From NCBI GenBank assembly GCA_024697825.1, contig JAILEP010000111.1, positions 1 to 35,718 on the forward strand: a stretch of 35,718 nt of DNA, given 5' to 3'. This DNA is from Acholeplasmatales bacterium (lineage in GTDB: Bacteria > Bacillota_I > Bacilli_A > Acholeplasmatales > Anaeroplasmataceae). Of the stretch, positions 8,990-16,834 are shown piece by piece. Within the stretch, counting starts at the first letter, position 1. The number at the start of each line of letters is the position of its first letter. The notes below the pieces were generated by a model. It did not search any database, was not told the DNA's origin, and worked only from the letters and a program-made list of their open reading frames with translations. The translations under genes were made by a program, and so were the position numbers.

Positions 8990-10696
8990 ATGTTAGAATT
9001 TAAGCTAGAAGATGCTGTTAAAGAGGAAATTAATAAGCTTGAAAAGCAAAGTAAAATAATTTCTTTTATTAGAACAGTAGTTGCAATAGCAGCAATTGTC
9101 TTTATAATTGTTGCCTTATCCGCAACAGATTACATTTATTATATAGTCGCAGGCGTGCTTGTTTTATTATTTATGGCAGTTGTAATATTTACAGCTCCAG
9201 TATATAGAAGGCTTGCTAAAAATAAGGCTAAGATTGCTTGCTATGATAAGCATAGAAAAAGAAGAAACGGTAAATATAATTCCTTTTTAGATAATGGCTA
9301 TGAGCTAATGAATAAGAAGAATTATAAGGAATCTGATTTAGATTTATTTGGTAAGCATTCATTGTTCCAATATTTAAATTCAGGAAGAACTAAGCCAGGT
9401 AGAGAAGCCTTACAGGATGCCCTTGTAAATGGTAGTGATATCAATTACGGAGAGCTTGCTTATAAGCTTGCAGAAAATGAGGAAGCTATCAATTTAGAGG
9501 CTACAATTCAAGGCTTTGATGGTAATGCTAAGAGTCTAGATTATGAGGCTTTAGTTTCTACAATGGGGACAAGGATTCCATTTAAAATTACTTATTTATT
9601 ACCTTTATTATCATTTATTGGAATGATTGTTTATGGAATATTAAGCATTGCTGGTATTGTTAATCCTTATTTATTAATTGTTTTCTTAATTGTTAATTTT
9701 ATGTTCTGTAAGATATTCTTAGGAAATGAGGTATTTAGCCTTAATTCTAATGCCTATTCTGATTTAATGGATAATTATCAGGATATTATTAAAACAGTCG
9801 AGAATACTGATATTGATTCAGAGCTTTATAAAGAAATAAAGAAGGAAATGCTTGATACAATTCCTGCAGTAAAATCAACAAGAGGTATTTTAGGATTATT
9901 AGCATTTAGAAATAATTTTATATTTAATTTATTTTCTAATCTAATTTTAATATTTGATTTTTGGACTATTCTTATTTACAACTTCAAAACTAAGGAGCAG
10001 AAGGAGCTAATTAATTTATTCAAGGCTACTGGTAAGCTTGAGGTTGCTTTATCCTTTGCAAATATTGGAATTGATAATGAAAATTATTGTATCGGTGATG
10101 AAGCAGATAATATTTCTGGTAATCTAATGTATCATCCACTTGTTAAGGATTGTATTGCAAATTCATTTAATTTAGATGGTGGTGTTATTCTAACTGGCTC
10201 TAATATGAGTGGTAAAACCACATTTATGAGAACTATTGGAATTTGTCAAACATTATATAATGCTAAGGCCTTAATTCCAGCTAAAAGCTATAGCTCATGT
10301 AAGTTACCTATCCATACATCGCTTAGAGCTAATGATATGCTATCAGAGGGTGTATCAACATTCTATGCTGAAATCCTTAGAATGCAGGAAATTAATAAGG
10401 CTATTAAGGATGGCAAGTGCTTAATTTTAATTGATGAAATCTTTAAGGGTACTAACGCAACTGAAAGAATTCTTGCCTCAAATAAGGTAATTGATAAGCT
10501 TAATGATTATAATCAGCTATTTATTATTTCTACTCATGATTATGAATTATGTGATGCAAATAACATTACTAATTATCATTTTGAAGAGGGCTATACAGAG
10601 GATAATAAGATTACCTTTGATTACACTATTAAGAGCGGTAAATCACAAACAAAAAATGCCATCTATTTATTAAAGATGGCAAATATTATCGAGTAG
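8990..10696 (+). CDS. Membrane-embedded MutS-family ATPase
   Basis: A 568-residue protein with a C-terminal MutS-type ABC ATPase: Walker A GSNMSGKT at 403-410 (K409), a signature-like segment LSEGVSTFYAEI, Walker B LILIDEIFKG with D482-E483, and the H-loop at H516 (STHD). Unlike mismatch-repair MutS it has no mismatch-binding domain I. It has hydrophobic helices at about 22-43 and 48-69, a longer hydrophobic stretch at 196-245 and another at 308-332, with a basic cytoplasmic segment (KHRKRRNGK) between. Proteins with this layout are usually annotated only as MutS family; their role is not known to me. No Smr nuclease domain follows. The ATG is preceded by GAGG near 8979-8982. Its last 27 bases overlap the convergent HAD gene, whose terminator lies inside this reading frame. 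Confidence 0.8.
   Translation: MLEFKLEDAVKEEINKLEKQSKIISFIRTVVAIAAIVFIIVALSATDYIYYIVAGVLVLLFMAVVIFTAPVYRRLAKNKAKIACYDKHRKRRNGKYNSFLDNGYELMNKKNYKESDLDLFGKHSLFQYLNSGRTKPGREALQDALVNGSDINYGELAYKLAENEEAINLEATIQGFDGNAKSLDYEALVSTMGTRIPFKITYLLPLLSFIGMIVYGILSIAGIVNPYLLIVFLIVNFMFCKIFLGNEVFSLNSNAYSDLMDNYQDIIKTVENTDIDSELYKEIKKEMLDTIPAVKSTRGILGLLAFRNNFIFNLFSNLILIFDFWTILIYNFKTKEQKELINLFKATGKLEVALSFANIGIDNENYCIGDEADNISGNLMYHPLVKDCIANSFNLDGGVILTGSNMSGKTTFMRTIGICQTLYNAKALIPAKSYSSCKLPIHTSLRANDMLSEGVSTFYAEILRMQEINKAIKDGKCLILIDEIFKGTNATERILASNKVIDKLNDYNQLFIISTHDYELCDANNITNYHFEEGYTEDNKITFDYTIKSGKSQTKNAIYLLKMANIIE
10651..10681 (-). terminator. Terminator of the HAD gene, inside the MutS-like coding sequence
   Basis: GCCATCT (10658-10664) pairs with AGATGGC (10674-10680), with one more T-A pair outside; on the minus strand the stem is followed by ATTTTTTG (A run 10651-10656 on plus). 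It thus reads as a terminator for the minus-strand gene and encodes part of the C-terminus of the MutS-like protein. Confidence 0.75.
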
Positions 10697-11434
10697 CTTT
10701 ATTAAGCCTCCCTCGTTATTATCATATTCAGTTACATAATCGGCGGCGTCCTTGATTTCAGGGTCGCCGTTTTTCATTGCGATTTTGATATCACATTTCT
10801 TAAGCATATCTAAATCAACAATTGAATCAGTAGCCCCGATAGTCTTAGTATCGTTATATGCATTTTTCATTAAATAATAAGCATCAGCCTTAGAAGAAGA
10901 ACCACGGTAGATTCTAAATAATGATCTATTAGTATCTCCGCCTAATGGCATAACTAATATTCCGATATCGTTTACAAAATCATGAAATTGATCAGCCTTT
11001 TCCTTAGCTATTGCAATAATAGCAGCTGGGACTTCAATTCCAAATTTATCACAAATTACACGATTAGCCTTTGGATACAATGGGTCTAAGCGCTCCTGAA
11101 AATTATAAATATAGGTATTTTCGTCATCACTTGCCCAAGCAGTATAGATAAATTTATGAAATTCATCATAGATTCTTTCTAATACATAGGCTGGTATTTT
11201 ATTTTGATATATCTTACCATTTACCTCAGCAACTCCTGAGATAATTGATAGGATATCAATATTGATTGAATATTTAATTTTAAATTCTTTTAATCTATCG
11301 AAGGAGGCACTTGATACTATACAAATATGATTTCCTTCTCTAATTAAATCTCTTAATGTAAATAAATCAGATTCTTTAATTGAGCCATTATCTGTTATTA
11401 GTGTTCCTTCAAAGTCACTTAAAATAGAAAACAT
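10670..11434 (-). CDS. HAD-superfamily protein, divergent Cof-like
   Basis: A 254-residue HAD-like hydrolase with the layout of Cof-type sugar or nucleotide phosphatases (motif I, a cap of about 110 residues, then the C-terminal core). Motif I is DFEGTL (D7, E9): the nucleophile Asp is kept, but the second Asp, normally the acid/base, is Glu. Motif IV reads GATDSIVDLDML, with Val in place of the usual Asn of the NDxxML signature. Both changes suggest altered or weak phosphatase activity. A typical HAD gene of the same class is at 24602-25414 for comparison. GGGTGAAG precedes the ATG. The gene runs into the 3' end of the MutS-like gene. Confidence 0.72.
   Translation of the reverse strand: MFSILSDFEGTLITDNGSIKESDLFTLRDLIREGNHICIVSSASFDRLKEFKIKYSINIDILSIISGVAEVNGKIYQNKIPAYVLERIYDEFHKFIYTAWASDDENTYIYNFQERLDPLYPKANRVICDKFGIEVPAAIIAIAKEKADQFHDFVNDIGILVMPLGGDTNRSLFRIYRGSSSKADAYYLMKNAYNDTKTIGATDSIVDLDMLKKCDIKIAMKNGDPEIKDAADYVTEYDNNEGGLIKLLDNICHL
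10741..10774 (+). terminator. Terminator of the MutS-like gene, inside the HAD coding sequence
   Basis: CGGCGGC (10741-10747) pairs with GTCGCCG (10763-10769), with one G-T wobble, followed by five T (10770-10774). It begins 45 bases after the stop of the MutS-like gene. The stem is far richer in GC than its surroundings and coincides with codons for NGDPEIKDAA of the minus-strand HAD protein. Confidence 0.75.
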
Positions 11435-11614: not shown

Positions 11615-12562
11615 ATGGTACTATTTAAAATTTTAGGAATCATTGAAGTTAATTTTCAGACTGTACTGAGCTTCCTACTTGGTATTGTAATTGGAGCAAT
11701 ACTAGTATTTGTAATTTATTTATTACTAGTAGTATTATCACTTAGAGATAAGAAGTTCTTTGTTAAGACTGATGAGGATACCTTAACAGAGGCAATGGCT
11801 AAGGATATGATTATTGAAGCCCAAAAGGCTTTTAAGGATAAGGAATTAAGAGGTAAGGAAACTAAGTTTAATTATTTTAGACATATTGTTTCTGACTTAA
11901 CATATGGAATTGCGTCAAGCTTTTTTCCAAATAGTAAATATCCACTTTTAGAGCTTTCAGTTGATGAAACAATTGAGCTTTTAGGATATGTTCAAAAAAG
12001 AATCGATGAGATATTAGATAAGGGAGCTCTTAAGGCAATTAGAAGGCTAAAGATTTCAACTATATTTAATGTTTCACAAACGACTGCAACTGCTATGAAT
12101 TCAAAAGCGTTTAAGATTAGTCAAAATGCAGTTAAGAAGGTTACTACAATTGGTAAGATTTGGAGCTATGTAAATCCAGCTAATTTAATTAAGAAGCCTT
12201 TTAGTAAGGCAATTGAGGTAATTATGAATAGGGTTTATTTAGCATCAATTACAATTGTTGGTGAGGAGGCCTTTAAGATTTATAGTAAATCAGTTCTTAA
12301 GGAGGAGGTTTCTATTGAAACAAGCCTTAAGGAGCTTATTGAGCCTGATGAGGAATTAAAGAATGCATTAGCTGAGGATTTTAAAGTTAAGAATGATGAC
12401 ACTAATCAGGTATTAGATGCATCAAGCAATAAGCCTGGTAAATTTAAAACAAGAGCTCTTACAAGCTTTAGTGATGTATCGTATGATAAATCACCAGATA
12501 AAGCACGTAAGATGAAGGAAGTAAATGTTACAGAAAGTGTAGAGGATACGTCAAATGTTTAA
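11615..12562 (+). CDS. Single-pass membrane protein upstream of FtsK motor, unknown family
   Basis: I do not recognise this 315-residue protein. It has one clear transmembrane helix at about residues 17-43 and a long cytoplasmic part: a helical region to about 240 (with amphipathic stretches such as TIGKIWSYVNPANLIKKPFSKAIEVIM) and a hydrophilic, probably disordered tail. The next gene, an FtsK-type motor without membrane helices, starts eight bases before this stop, so the two are translationally coupled; this protein may be its membrane anchor (inference). ATG 11615 is the only usable start that keeps the helix: an in-frame TAG lies at 11609-11611 and no other ATG, GTG or TTG occurs until 11792 or beyond. 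The start lacks a nearby ribosome binding site (see the leader entry). Confidence 0.75.
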   Translation: MVLFKILGIIEVNFQTVLSFLLGIVIGAILVFVIYLLLVVLSLRDKKFFVKTDEDTLTEAMAKDMIIEAQKAFKDKELRGKETKFNYFRHIVSDLTYGIASSFFPNSKYPLLELSVDETIELLGYVQKRIDEILDKGALKAIRRLKISTIFNVSQTTATAMNSKAFKISQNAVKKVTTIGKIWSYVNPANLIKKPFSKAIEVIMNRVYLASITIVGEEAFKIYSKSVLKEEVSIETSLKELIEPDEELKNALAEDFKVKNDDTNQVLDASSNKPGKFKTRALTSFSDVSYDKSPDKARKMKEVNVTESVEDTSNV

Positions 12563-15035
12563 GAAAAAGAAAAAGGTTTTTGAATATGAAGAGGGAAGAT
12601 TTGAAATCTATCAGATGACTTTTCCTAAAAAGCTTAACGCCGATGGCGATGAGTTTTTAAAGACAGATGTTGCCTCTCCTATGTTTGGTTCTAGTATTCC
12701 AGATAGAATATCTTATACTGATAATGCTGGTGAAAGAGATGTTGATTACAATTATGATTATGTAAGAAACGAGGACGAAAAGCATTTAACTAAGGAAGAT
12801 ATTATTGAAAGATTTGGTTCTGAATACCATGAATTTCAAATTACTAATAATGAAAAGATTGCAGAATTTGCAGGAACAACAGTACCTAAGCCAGATCCTA
12901 AGGTAGAAAAGAAGGCTGAGGTCATTATTGATAAAAAGAAAAAGGATGATTCATTTGTTACAGGAATTGACGATTTTATGGCAGAGCCTGTAGTAGAAGA
13001 AACGCCTGTAGAGGAAGAACCAGATATTTATTCTGATATGGCTACATTTAAGATTAATGCAGTTGAGGATAATGGTCAGGATGAATCTATTGGTTATAAT
13101 TCTATGAGCAATAATATGCCAAAGCCAGAAAGCACATCTATTCCTTCATTCTTAAGAAATGCTGATCCTGAGGAGGAAGAGGTTAATAATGAGCCTTTAG
13201 AGGAAGAGGAAATAGTTACTCCAAGCGAGCCAGAATTCAGCTTTGGTACAGATAATGAGGATCCTATCGAATTTAATGATATTCCTACAATGGAGGCTCC
13301 TGAATTTGAATTCACTCCAAGAAATAACGCACCAATCGATAGAAATATTACTATTGAAGAGGCAATGAGAAGAGCGGAAAATAATGAATTCCCTGAGCTT
13401 ATGAGTGGTGGAATTGGTTCTAATAGACCTGGTGAGGCTAAGGTAGGAGGTCCTGCAGTTGCCCCTACAAAGGTAGCACCTAAGCCTACTCCAAAGCCAG
13501 CTCCTGAAAAGAAGGAAAATCCTGTTAAGGCACTTAAGGAGGTTACTATTAAGGGTAATGATTATTCTAAATATTCAATTCCTTATACAGAGCTATTCCC
13601 TAAGAGTAAGGCTGGTAACGATTCTCATCCAGCTTGGCTTGAGCATAAGAAGGAAATTATTAATGAGACATTAAAGGAATTTAATATTGGTGGTGAGGTA
13701 ATCGATTATACAAAGGGTCCTGCCTTCACACTATATGAAATTATGCTTGATGCCGGTGTTAATGTTAAGAAGATTTCACAGATTAAGGATAACCTAGCCA
13801 TGAAGCTAGAGGTTAAATCAATGCGTATTTTAGCCCCTATTCCTGGTAAGGCTACAGTTGGTATTGAAGCTCCAAATGATAAGGCTGATTCAGTACCATT
13901 TGGTGATATTATCACAGAAGAATTTATTCATGATGGCAAGCCACTTAATGTAGCACTTGGTAAGCTAATTGATAACTCACCTTTATATCAAAATATTTAC
14001 AACATGCCACATGCGCTTGTTGCTGGTGCTACACAATCAGGTAAGTCAGTATCACTTAATACAATGCTATGCTCATTAATTATTAAGAACTCACCTGAGC
14101 AGCTAAAGCTAATTATTATTGACCCTAAGATGGTTGAATTTACATTATATGAAAATATTCCACATCTAGCTACACCTATTATTTCTGATTCTACTTTAGC
14201 AACAGAAGCCCTACATTGGTGTGTAGATGAAATGGATAGACGTTATGGTGTATTAAAAAGATTCCGTGTTAAGAATGCTGGTGACTATTTAGAAAAGAGA
14301 AAGTCAGATCCTACAATGCCTCCTTTACCTTATATCGTAGTAGTTGTTGATGAATTTAACGACTTAGTTATGACATCAGGTGCAGAGGTACAGGATTATA
14401 TCGTAAGACTTGCCCAAAAGGCAAGAGCTGCAGGTATGCATGTTATTTTAGCAACACAGCGACCTACAACTAACGTTATCAATGGTACAATTAAGGCTAA
14501 CATTCCATGTCGTATTGCCTTTAGAGTTGCATCTACAGTTGACTCTATGACAATCCTAGACCAGGCAGGTGCTGAAGACCTACTAGGACGTGGTGATATG
14601 CTTATTGTTAACCAGGGAGCACCAGTTCGTGCCCAGGGCGCATATTTATCAGATGATGAAATTGGTGGCTTATGTGATTATTTAACAGCTAAATATGTTC
14701 CTGATTATATCTTTAGTCAGGAGGAGCTATCAAAGAGAATTAAGCAGGGTGGTCCTACAGCCTTTGGTGGTAAGGATGCCCAGGATGAGCCTGAGGACTT
14801 ATTATATCAAATTTCAAGATTCTGTGTTGAATCACAGGCTTGTTCAATCAATGCAATTCAGAATTCATTTGGCTTAGGATTTAATAGGGCATCTAGAATT
14901 GTTTCAATTTTAGAGGATAGAGGTATTGTTTCACCTAAGCAGGGAACTAAGGCAAGAGACATTTTAGTTGATTTAGATGATGTCGATGAAATGTTTGGTA
15001 TGTCTTCAGATGAAGAGGCAGAAGAAGAGTATTAA
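12555..15035 (+). CDS. FtsK/SpoIIIE-type DNA translocase lacking the membrane domain
   Basis: An 826-residue motor protein of chromosome segregation. Residues about 1-340 are hydrophilic, acidic and proline-rich (linker), with none of the N-terminal transmembrane helices that FtsK and SpoIIIE normally carry. The alpha/beta motor follows: Walker A GATQSGKS at 491-498 (K497), Walker B VVVVDEFNDL with D599, and LATQRPTTNVINGTIKANIPCRIAFRV. A gamma winged-helix domain at about 755-815 (LLYQISRFCVESQACSINAIQ, then RASRIVSILEDRGIVSP) would read orienting DNA sequences. Hexamers of this motor pump DNA through the division septum. The gene overlaps the preceding one-helix membrane protein by eight bases. 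lepB, rbgA and rnhB follow at short distances. Confidence 0.93.
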   Translation: MFKKKKKVFEYEEGRFEIYQMTFPKKLNADGDEFLKTDVASPMFGSSIPDRISYTDNAGERDVDYNYDYVRNEDEKHLTKEDIIERFGSEYHEFQITNNEKIAEFAGTTVPKPDPKVEKKAEVIIDKKKKDDSFVTGIDDFMAEPVVEETPVEEEPDIYSDMATFKINAVEDNGQDESIGYNSMSNNMPKPESTSIPSFLRNADPEEEEVNNEPLEEEEIVTPSEPEFSFGTDNEDPIEFNDIPTMEAPEFEFTPRNNAPIDRNITIEEAMRRAENNEFPELMSGGIGSNRPGEAKVGGPAVAPTKVAPKPTPKPAPEKKENPVKALKEVTIKGNDYSKYSIPYTELFPKSKAGNDSHPAWLEHKKEIINETLKEFNIGGEVIDYTKGPAFTLYEIMLDAGVNVKKISQIKDNLAMKLEVKSMRILAPIPGKATVGIEAPNDKADSVPFGDIITEEFIHDGKPLNVALGKLIDNSPLYQNIYNMPHALVAGATQSGKSVSLNTMLCSLIIKNSPEQLKLIIIDPKMVEFTLYENIPHLATPIISDSTLATEALHWCVDEMDRRYGVLKRFRVKNAGDYLEKRKSDPTMPPLPYIVVVVDEFNDLVMTSGAEVQDYIVRLAQKARAAGMHVILATQRPTTNVINGTIKANIPCRIAFRVASTVDSMTILDQAGAEDLLGRGDMLIVNQGAPVRAQGAYLSDDEIGGLCDYLTAKYVPDYIFSQEELSKRIKQGGPTAFGGKDAQDEPEDLLYQISRFCVESQACSINAIQNSFGLGFNRASRIVSILEDRGIVSPKQGTKARDILVDLDDVDEMFGMSSDEEAEEEY

Positions 15036-15046
15036 AAGAGGTTTTT

Positions 15047-15931
15047 ATGAAAGCAGCCTATGTTGATGGCCTAAAGAATGGCACTCTAAGTGGTGATAAT
15101 TTAATAAATGCCAAGAAGATCATATTCCGTACCATTGTCATTTGGTTTGGAATTTCATTATTCCTAATCATTATGACAATAGCAGGAATTCATCGTTTGT
15201 TTATTTTTGCAGAAATTTTTAGCTCAACATCAGGCTTTTTCCAGGTATTTGGTATTCTTATGTATATTCTTGCAATATCTTTATTGTTTGGATATACAAC
15301 AGCGATACTTGCCTATATTATTTACTGTGAAAAGGGAAAAAAGAAAAAGGAATGGGCATTCTTTGTTGGAAAGCTATTTTCTTGGTTTGATATTCCAGCA
15401 TTTATTTTAAAATGCTTTGCAGTATTATTATTTGTGATGATTTATATGTTCAATCCATGTACAGTTGCTGGATCATCAATGTCATCTACATTTGAGGATG
15501 GCGATAAGCTAATCGTATCTGATGTATTCTATACTGACCCAGATATAGATGATGTTATAATCTTTGATGCAACTAATTATGGTGGACAGGAGGCCTTCTA
15601 TATTAAGCGTGTAATCGCTAAGGAAGGTGACACAATTAACTTTGATACAACAACTGGTATTTTTATGGTTAATGGTGAAGAGGAGGCTCGTCAGGGCGTT
15701 TCCTATAATCAATATATGAATTTACAAAATGTAGTAGAAAAGGAAAATGGAGAAACAATAACTGATTCTCCAAGAGAGGTTACTATTCCTAATGATAAGA
15801 TTATTGTCTTTGGAGATAATAGATTAAATTCTAGTGACTCAAGATATTTTACTAAGCTTGTTGATGTAAGTGATGTATATGGTAGGGTAATTATTAGAAT
15901 TTACCCATTAAATAAAATTAGATTTTTCTAA
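15047..15931 (+). CDS. lepB: Signal peptidase I
   Basis: A 294-residue type I signal peptidase (family S26) that removes signal peptides from exported proteins at the outer face of the membrane. The catalytic serine is S144 in AGSSMSSTF and the general-base lysine K187 in FYIKRVIAKEGD; the C-terminal FGDNRLNSSDSRYF is box E of the family. The Pro that usually follows in SMxPT is Ser here. It is longer than Bacillus SipS because of extra N-terminal hydrophobic helices (about 28-50 and 60-92) before the helix at 115-135 that precedes the active site. The order lepB-rbgA-rnhB is common in Firmicutes. Confidence 0.93.
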   Translation: MKAAYVDGLKNGTLSGDNLINAKKIIFRTIVIWFGISLFLIIMTIAGIHRLFIFAEIFSSTSGFFQVFGILMYILAISLLFGYTTAILAYIIYCEKGKKKKEWAFFVGKLFSWFDIPAFILKCFAVLLFVMIYMFNPCTVAGSSMSSTFEDGDKLIVSDVFYTDPDIDDVIIFDATNYGGQEAFYIKRVIAKEGDTINFDTTTGIFMVNGEEEARQGVSYNQYMNLQNVVEKENGETITDSPREVTIPNDKIIVFGDNRLNSSDSRYFTKLVDVSDVYGRVIIRIYPLNKIRFF

Positions 15932-15943
15932 GAGGTTTTAAAA

Positions 15944-16834
15944 ATGCAGATAATTCAATGGTTTCCTGGCCATATGGCAAAGGCCAGAAGAGAAATAACT
16001 GAATCTCTCGCAAAGGTAGATATTATATTTGAGCTATATGACGCAAGAATCCCTCTTTCTAGTAAGAATCCTATGGTTGATGAAATTGTTGGTAAAAAGC
16101 CAAGATTAGTGCTTTTAAATAAAGCATCAATTGCAGACCCTAAGGTTACTAAGGAATGGATTAAGTATTATAAGGATAAGGGAATAGTTGCGTTAGATAT
16201 TGACTCAATAAATGGTTATAATGTAAACAAGATTGTATCCTATGCCTATGAGGTATTAAAGGATGAATTTGCGAAGAAGGAAAAGCGTGGAATCAAATCA
16301 AAGACAATCAAGGCAATGATTATCGGTATTCCAAATGTTGGTAAATCCACACTTATTAATAGACTTGCTAAAAGAAAGGCAGCTACAACAGGAGATAAGC
16401 CAGGTGTTACTAAGGCTCAGTCATGGATTAAGGTAACAGATGATTTATTCTTACTTGATACACCAGGTATTTTGTGGCCTAAGTTTGAGGACCAGATGGT
16501 TGGTGTAAAGCTTGCGATGGCAGGCTCTATTAAGGATGATATTTTAAATCTAGAGCAGATTACTTTAGCATCAATTAAATATATGAAGGATAATTATGCT
16601 AGTAATCTAATGGATAGATATAATATTACAGAGCTTGAGGATGATGAAAAGCTAATTCTTGATCAGATTTGTAAAAAGAGAGGCTGTCTTTTAAAGGGTG
16701 GCTTACTTGATTATGATAGAGCATCTGTAATGTTTATGAATGATTTAAGAAATACAAGGATTGGAGCGATGAGCTATGAAAGACCAGCAGACTTTGAAGC
16801 TGAAAACGAAGAAGGAGCAAGTGAATCTTTATAA
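15944..16834 (+). CDS. rbgA: Ribosome biogenesis GTPase RbgA (YlqF)
   Basis: A 296-residue circularly permuted GTPase needed for late 50S subunit assembly. The N-terminal WFPGHMAKA is the family signature; G4 (LNKAS, usually NKAD) comes before G1 (GIPNVGKST, residues 128-136) and G3 (DTPG), which is the permuted order. A C-terminal helical domain follows. The last 59 bases overlap the start of rnhB in another frame, so the tail ADFEAENEEGASESL is shared coding space. It sits 12 bases after lepB. Confidence 0.95.
   Translation: MQIIQWFPGHMAKARREITESLAKVDIIFELYDARIPLSSKNPMVDEIVGKKPRLVLLNKASIADPKVTKEWIKYYKDKGIVALDIDSINGYNVNKIVSYAYEVLKDEFAKKEKRGIKSKTIKAMIIGIPNVGKSTLINRLAKRKAATTGDKPGVTKAQSWIKVTDDLFLLDTPGILWPKFEDQMVGVKLAMAGSIKDDILNLEQITLASIKYMKDNYASNLMDRYNITELEDDEKLILDQICKKRGCLLKGGLLDYDRASVMFMNDLRNTRIGAMSYERPADFEAENEEGASESL

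Follow-up and report, generated by a model that had tools for sequence, protein, structure and literature searches.

The closest described system to the locus analysed here is SftA (YtpS) of Bacillus subtilis, an FtsK homologue without membrane helices that is recruited by the Z-ring (PMC5357621), a recruitment to which SepF and FtsA have been added (PMC11790237). In the passages of these papers that deal with it, SftA has an FtsK-type motor with a gamma domain and a long N-terminal region, and these passages describe no co-encoded membrane protein. By contrast, translocases of the SpoIIIE/FtsK type have four N-terminal membrane helices in addition to their alpha, beta and gamma domains. How a soluble translocase stays at the septum is an open question in the field, as is how division and DNA segregation work in wall-less, FtsZ-less mollicutes such as phytoplasmas.

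The window, i.e. the whole stretch of 35,718 nucleotides that was analysed, comes from an Acholeplasmatales bacterium and holds an ftsK gene that overlaps the gene before it. The features that concern us are:

10670 to 11434, minus strand: HAD-type hydrolase gene, divergent; left edge of the conserved block, in the same position in other families
11615 to 12562, plus strand: uncharacterised single-pass membrane protein, 315 aa (the upstream protein), with an N-terminal helix, a predicted all-helical cytoplasmic domain at about residues 59-265 and a low-confidence tail
12555 to 12562, plus strand: 8-nt stop/start overlap of the upstream gene and ftsK, ATGTTTAA
12555 to 15035, plus strand: probable SftA-type (membrane-helix-free) FtsK DNA translocase, 826 aa, the sole FtsK of the genome
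12555 to 12914, plus strand: conserved N-terminal module of SftA-type FtsK, residues 1-120, F-x-(I/V)-x-Q ... SP-x-(F/Y)-G ... D ... YD-x-x-R
12915 to 13574, plus strand: acidic, hydrophilic, poorly conserved linker, about residues 121-340
15047 to 15931, plus strand: signal peptidase I (lepB), the next gene of the block after ftsK
15944 to 16834, plus strand: RbgA/YlqF-like GTPase; in phytoplasmas, which have lost ftsK, its gene comes immediately after the upstream gene

Both open reading frames and the 8-nt overlap were found as the original prediction had described them. A domain search placed FtsK alpha, FtsK_SpoIIIE and FtsK gamma matches at motor residues 343-805, and the alpha, beta and gamma domains of SpoIIIE/FtsK are thus also present in this motor. 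Residues 1-340 are acidic and hydrophilic. Because the Kyte-Doolittle mean over 19-residue windows reaches only 0.43 in these residues and 1.08 in the entire protein, the motor has no membrane helix, and the four N-terminal helices of the FtsK/SpoIIIE type are absent from it. In this respect, the original prediction of an FtsK motor with about 340 hydrophilic residues and no transmembrane helix is borne out by domain matches and hydropathy. However, its premise that FtsK and SpoIIIE normally have four helices overlooks the membrane-free class that SftA represents, as described in the parts of PMC5357621 concerned with SftA.

The genome of the window (1.91 Mb, 98% complete) encodes one copy of FtsK, and the second, membrane-spanning FtsK that the original prediction had proposed to look for was not found in it. 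Two further weak PF01580 matches lie together on contig C74, and the one of the two that was read through (L002) looks like a VirB4-type conjugation ATPase. Thus, while Bacillus keeps the four-helix SpoIIIE besides SftA, this genome has the SftA type only. FtsZ and SepF are both encoded. Besides FtsZ on contig C62, the genome also has a second tubulin-superfamily gene (G000:C120:3928-4389; 336-aa frame).

To place the motor among its relatives, we used a tree of 62 motors together with the families from the genome search, labelled f1 to f24; all membrane-helix calls were made by hydropathy alone and, for these families, on family representatives. Membrane-free FtsKs lie on one side of the tree and four-helix FtsKs on the other, with the exception of a copy from f15 and of f8. 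Family f15 has one membrane-free and one four-helix FtsK, the same combination as in Bacillus, and the branch that places its membrane-free copy is weak (89/51). The FtsKs of f8 (Mycoplasmatales-like) were at first taken for membrane-free, an artefact of translation table 11: with TGA read as Trp, the membrane helices return (L257 and L261; four helices in one and three called in the other) and f8 is therefore removed as a counterexample. All membrane-free FtsKs sampled from the main clade carry an N-terminal "F-x-SP-x-x-G" module, whether the upstream gene accompanies them or not; in the membrane-free copy of f15 the module is reduced to its core motif, and four-helix FtsKs lack it. The model of this module included one partial four-helix sequence (L276), which left the contrast unchanged. 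The membrane-free ftsK of f12 and f15 is part of a block of genes for an M42 peptidase, a DUF84 NTPase, thioredoxin, FtsK and a Mur ligase. This block resembles the sftA locus of B. subtilis, in which a thioredoxin-like gene precedes sftA and murC follows it. The pair in the window, on the other hand, is flanked by HAD, lepB and rbgA genes and not by thioredoxin or Mur ligase genes. Our assignment of the motor to the SftA type is a likely one, in which the tie to B. subtilis SftA comes from the tree pattern and the literature. Membrane helices are absent from the SftA-like lineage regardless of whether the upstream gene is present, and the motor belongs to this separate lineage. Thus, the idea in the original prediction that an FtsK was split into a motor and an anchor is not supported. 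As a separate observation, one genome (G031) has, in addition to a full-length FtsK, a short FtsK of 361 aa (L119:977-2059) that matches the beta and gamma region and lacks the N-terminal region.

The upstream protein had been described as an unrecognised protein of 315 residues with one N-terminal helix, and we arrive at the same description. It has one strong membrane helix at about residues 15-43 (hydropathy peak 3.18). The positive charge is greater after this helix than before it, which suggests that the large part of the protein is cytoplasmic. A second hydrophobic stretch at about residues 200-218 is marginal in many relatives, and a two-helix topology is therefore conceivable. The helix contains an invariant G23-x3-G27, and in a class-wide alignment of 76 sequences (A3) this G-x3-G is invariant in the family, which also shares a "FYPxSKYPxLEL" loop and a C-terminal "NPxYW ... 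GEETYKIYSK" region. AlphaFold predicts an all-helical cytoplasmic domain. The protein has no match above the cut-off in Pfam or NCBIfam and no relative in sequence searches of the PDB, PHROGs, phages and plasmids, and a PDB fold search with two AlphaFold models (mean pLDDT 74.6 and 78.7), a kind of search that serves helical models poorly, gave nothing above background. The upstream protein is a member of an apparently new, undescribed membrane-protein family. SepF, the membrane tether of the Z-ring, offers a conceptual parallel, being a small adaptor at the membrane that serves a soluble division protein; however, the upstream protein lacks a SepF domain and has a true membrane helix, and SepF is encoded separately in the genome. 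Two candidate relationships were rejected: a likeness to SPX domains, which recurred in weak fold-search rows with an rmsd of about 11, was discarded, and a relationship to DUF697, hinted at by a neighbouring gene in f9, was unsupported when checked.

The two genes are widely kept together. Among 60 relatives, the upstream family is present in 53 and the motor in 59, and the two are adjacent wherever both were found in those loci, which argues that the pairing is not due to chance. In the named relatives, i.e. Anaeroplasma, Acholeplasma (including A. laidlawii), Peloplasma and Paracholeplasma, together with many uncultured Acholeplasmatales, FtsK is encoded directly downstream of the upstream gene in 78 of the 79 named loci with FtsK, and the FtsKs are without membrane helices in all 79. 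Acholeplasmatales have 94 distinct adjacent pairs, of which 76 overlap and 18 are spaced by 0-12 nt. Of 296 genomes sampled from the class, 123 have the upstream family, and the pair is adjacent in 90 genomes that have both this family and a listed FtsK; an apparent break of the pair in G277 is a contig end. The order is identical in about ten families of the class. The 8-nt overlap in the window is consistent with translational coupling of the pair. Such an overlap could also allow frameshifting into a single anchor-motor polypeptide, which we regard as highly improbable because 18 of the 94 pairs do not overlap, the length of the overlap varies, and a search for a natural anchor-motor fusion in loci with long open frames gave none.

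These data bear on the two-component translocase that the original prediction had proposed, with the anchor as a separate protein. In such a translocase, the motor would have the upstream protein as its dedicated membrane anchor or receptor in place of the four helices of FtsK. Several observations argue for this arrangement: the motor is the only FtsK of its genome, the two genes are neighbours at 94 distinct loci in the order and in 90 of the genomes sampled from the class, and, apart from f21, the upstream gene is missing from families whose FtsKs are all of the four-helix kind. So does a weak residual co-divergence: once motor divergence is removed, the distances for the upstream protein and those for the N-terminal module of the motor have a partial r of 0.28, and 0 of 2000 permutations were as high. 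This signal could reflect contact or shared rate shifts.

However, each gene is also found without the other. In all five genomes of phytoplasmas, which infect plants, the upstream gene is kept, conserved and in its old place, directly beside rbgA as would result from an excision of ftsK and lepB, while these five genomes have no PF01580 match, no FtsZ above the cut-off and no SepF; the lack of FtsZ agrees with PMC4164004. The upstream protein is 71-78% identical among three phytoplasmas, a level similar to that of the products of the neighbouring housekeeping genes miaA and rbgA. In f21, the upstream gene is unlinked to FtsK, which is of the four-helix kind; the two genes are also apart in f12, where the FtsK is membrane-free. 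Conversely, profile search combined with locus inspection identified membrane-free FtsKs with the N-terminal module and no upstream gene at the locus in G063, G066, G023, G083, G085/G283 and G036/G040, the first three of which are near-complete genomes, and at several of these motor-only loci the HAD gene directly adjoins ftsK. Constant co-occurrence, which the original prediction had proposed to survey, is therefore not what we observe, and the upstream gene without the motor, a case that the original prediction had named as refuting it, does occur; because of the phytoplasmas, the unlinked cases in f21 and f12 and the motor-only genomes, neither gene requires the other. Because it is retained in phytoplasmas, which have no pump, the upstream protein cannot be only the anchor of the pump. 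With FtsK absent from all five phytoplasmas, a four-helix FtsK in f21, an unlinked gene in f12 and a module-bearing motor on its own in several near-complete genomes, the two-component translocase is unlikely: the sole FtsK and the widely conserved, often overlapping pair stand, while the division of an FtsK into motor and anchor is not supported.

The opposite possibility is that the two are housekeeping genes that share a frozen block but are unrelated and have no functional tie. Conservation indeed covers the entire block, in the order HAD, upstream gene, ftsK, lepB or a 3-helix protein, rbgA and rnhB, and phytoplasmas keep the upstream gene without the motor. Against this, about ten families keep the pair, frequently with overlaps, while the gene that comes next after ftsK differs from family to family, and the upstream gene is strongly associated with the membrane-free type of motor, an association that is confounded by ancestry. 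We consider this possibility doubtful, although some weight has to be given to it.

Based on these data, we favor as the probable explanation an SftA-type motor that is encoded with a new membrane-protein family having a role of its own and acting at most as an accessory tether. In this model, the motor is a chromosome translocase of the SftA type and the last remaining FtsK of a lineage in which the four-helix SpoIIIE-type paralogue is absent. By analogy to Bacillus SftA, its N-terminal module would most likely bind the Z-ring, i.e. FtsZ together with SepF or FtsA, and thereby bring the motor to the division site, where it would pump DNA out of the closing septum. The upstream gene is usually encoded, and probably co-transcribed, with the motor gene; its product is probably also co-translated with the motor, and may help to hold it at the membrane through physical contact. 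In addition, since some lineages without the motor retain the upstream protein and others with the motor do not have it, this protein would have its own function, one that in phytoplasmas outlasted both FtsK and FtsZ. How strongly the two genes are paired across many families, often with an overlap, suggests a closer functional tie than the word "accessory" implies.

The upstream protein, which most relatives encode next to the motor and which stays in place after the loss of the motor and FtsZ, is a concrete candidate for both questions raised at the outset, and a cultivable relative, A. laidlawii, has the same upstream gene and ftsK pair. The most far-reaching version, namely that the family is the true membrane receptor for SftA-type translocases in a two-component DNA pump and that in phytoplasmas the same protein still works in division or segregation after the loss of FtsZ, SepF and FtsK, is a tentative proposal that we hold to be improbable.

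The upstream family also occurs in other arrangements. In four f12 loci (L230, L232, L233 and L305), two neighbours recur next to the unlinked gene, encoding proteins of about 560 and 415 aa, which in L230 are an ankyrin-repeat protein and an HI0933-like flavoprotein. Second copies lie near the ftsK-linked copy at L067:5696-6442, L068:6504-7250 and L083:4247-4966, and L242 and L243 each have two tandem copies distant from ftsK, those in L242 downstream of a DUF697 gene. In the window itself, positions 8990-10696 encode a MutS domain V ATPase whose N-terminal part has about four to five hydrophobic helices; the product is a membrane MutS-like protein and not a typical mismatch-repair MutS.
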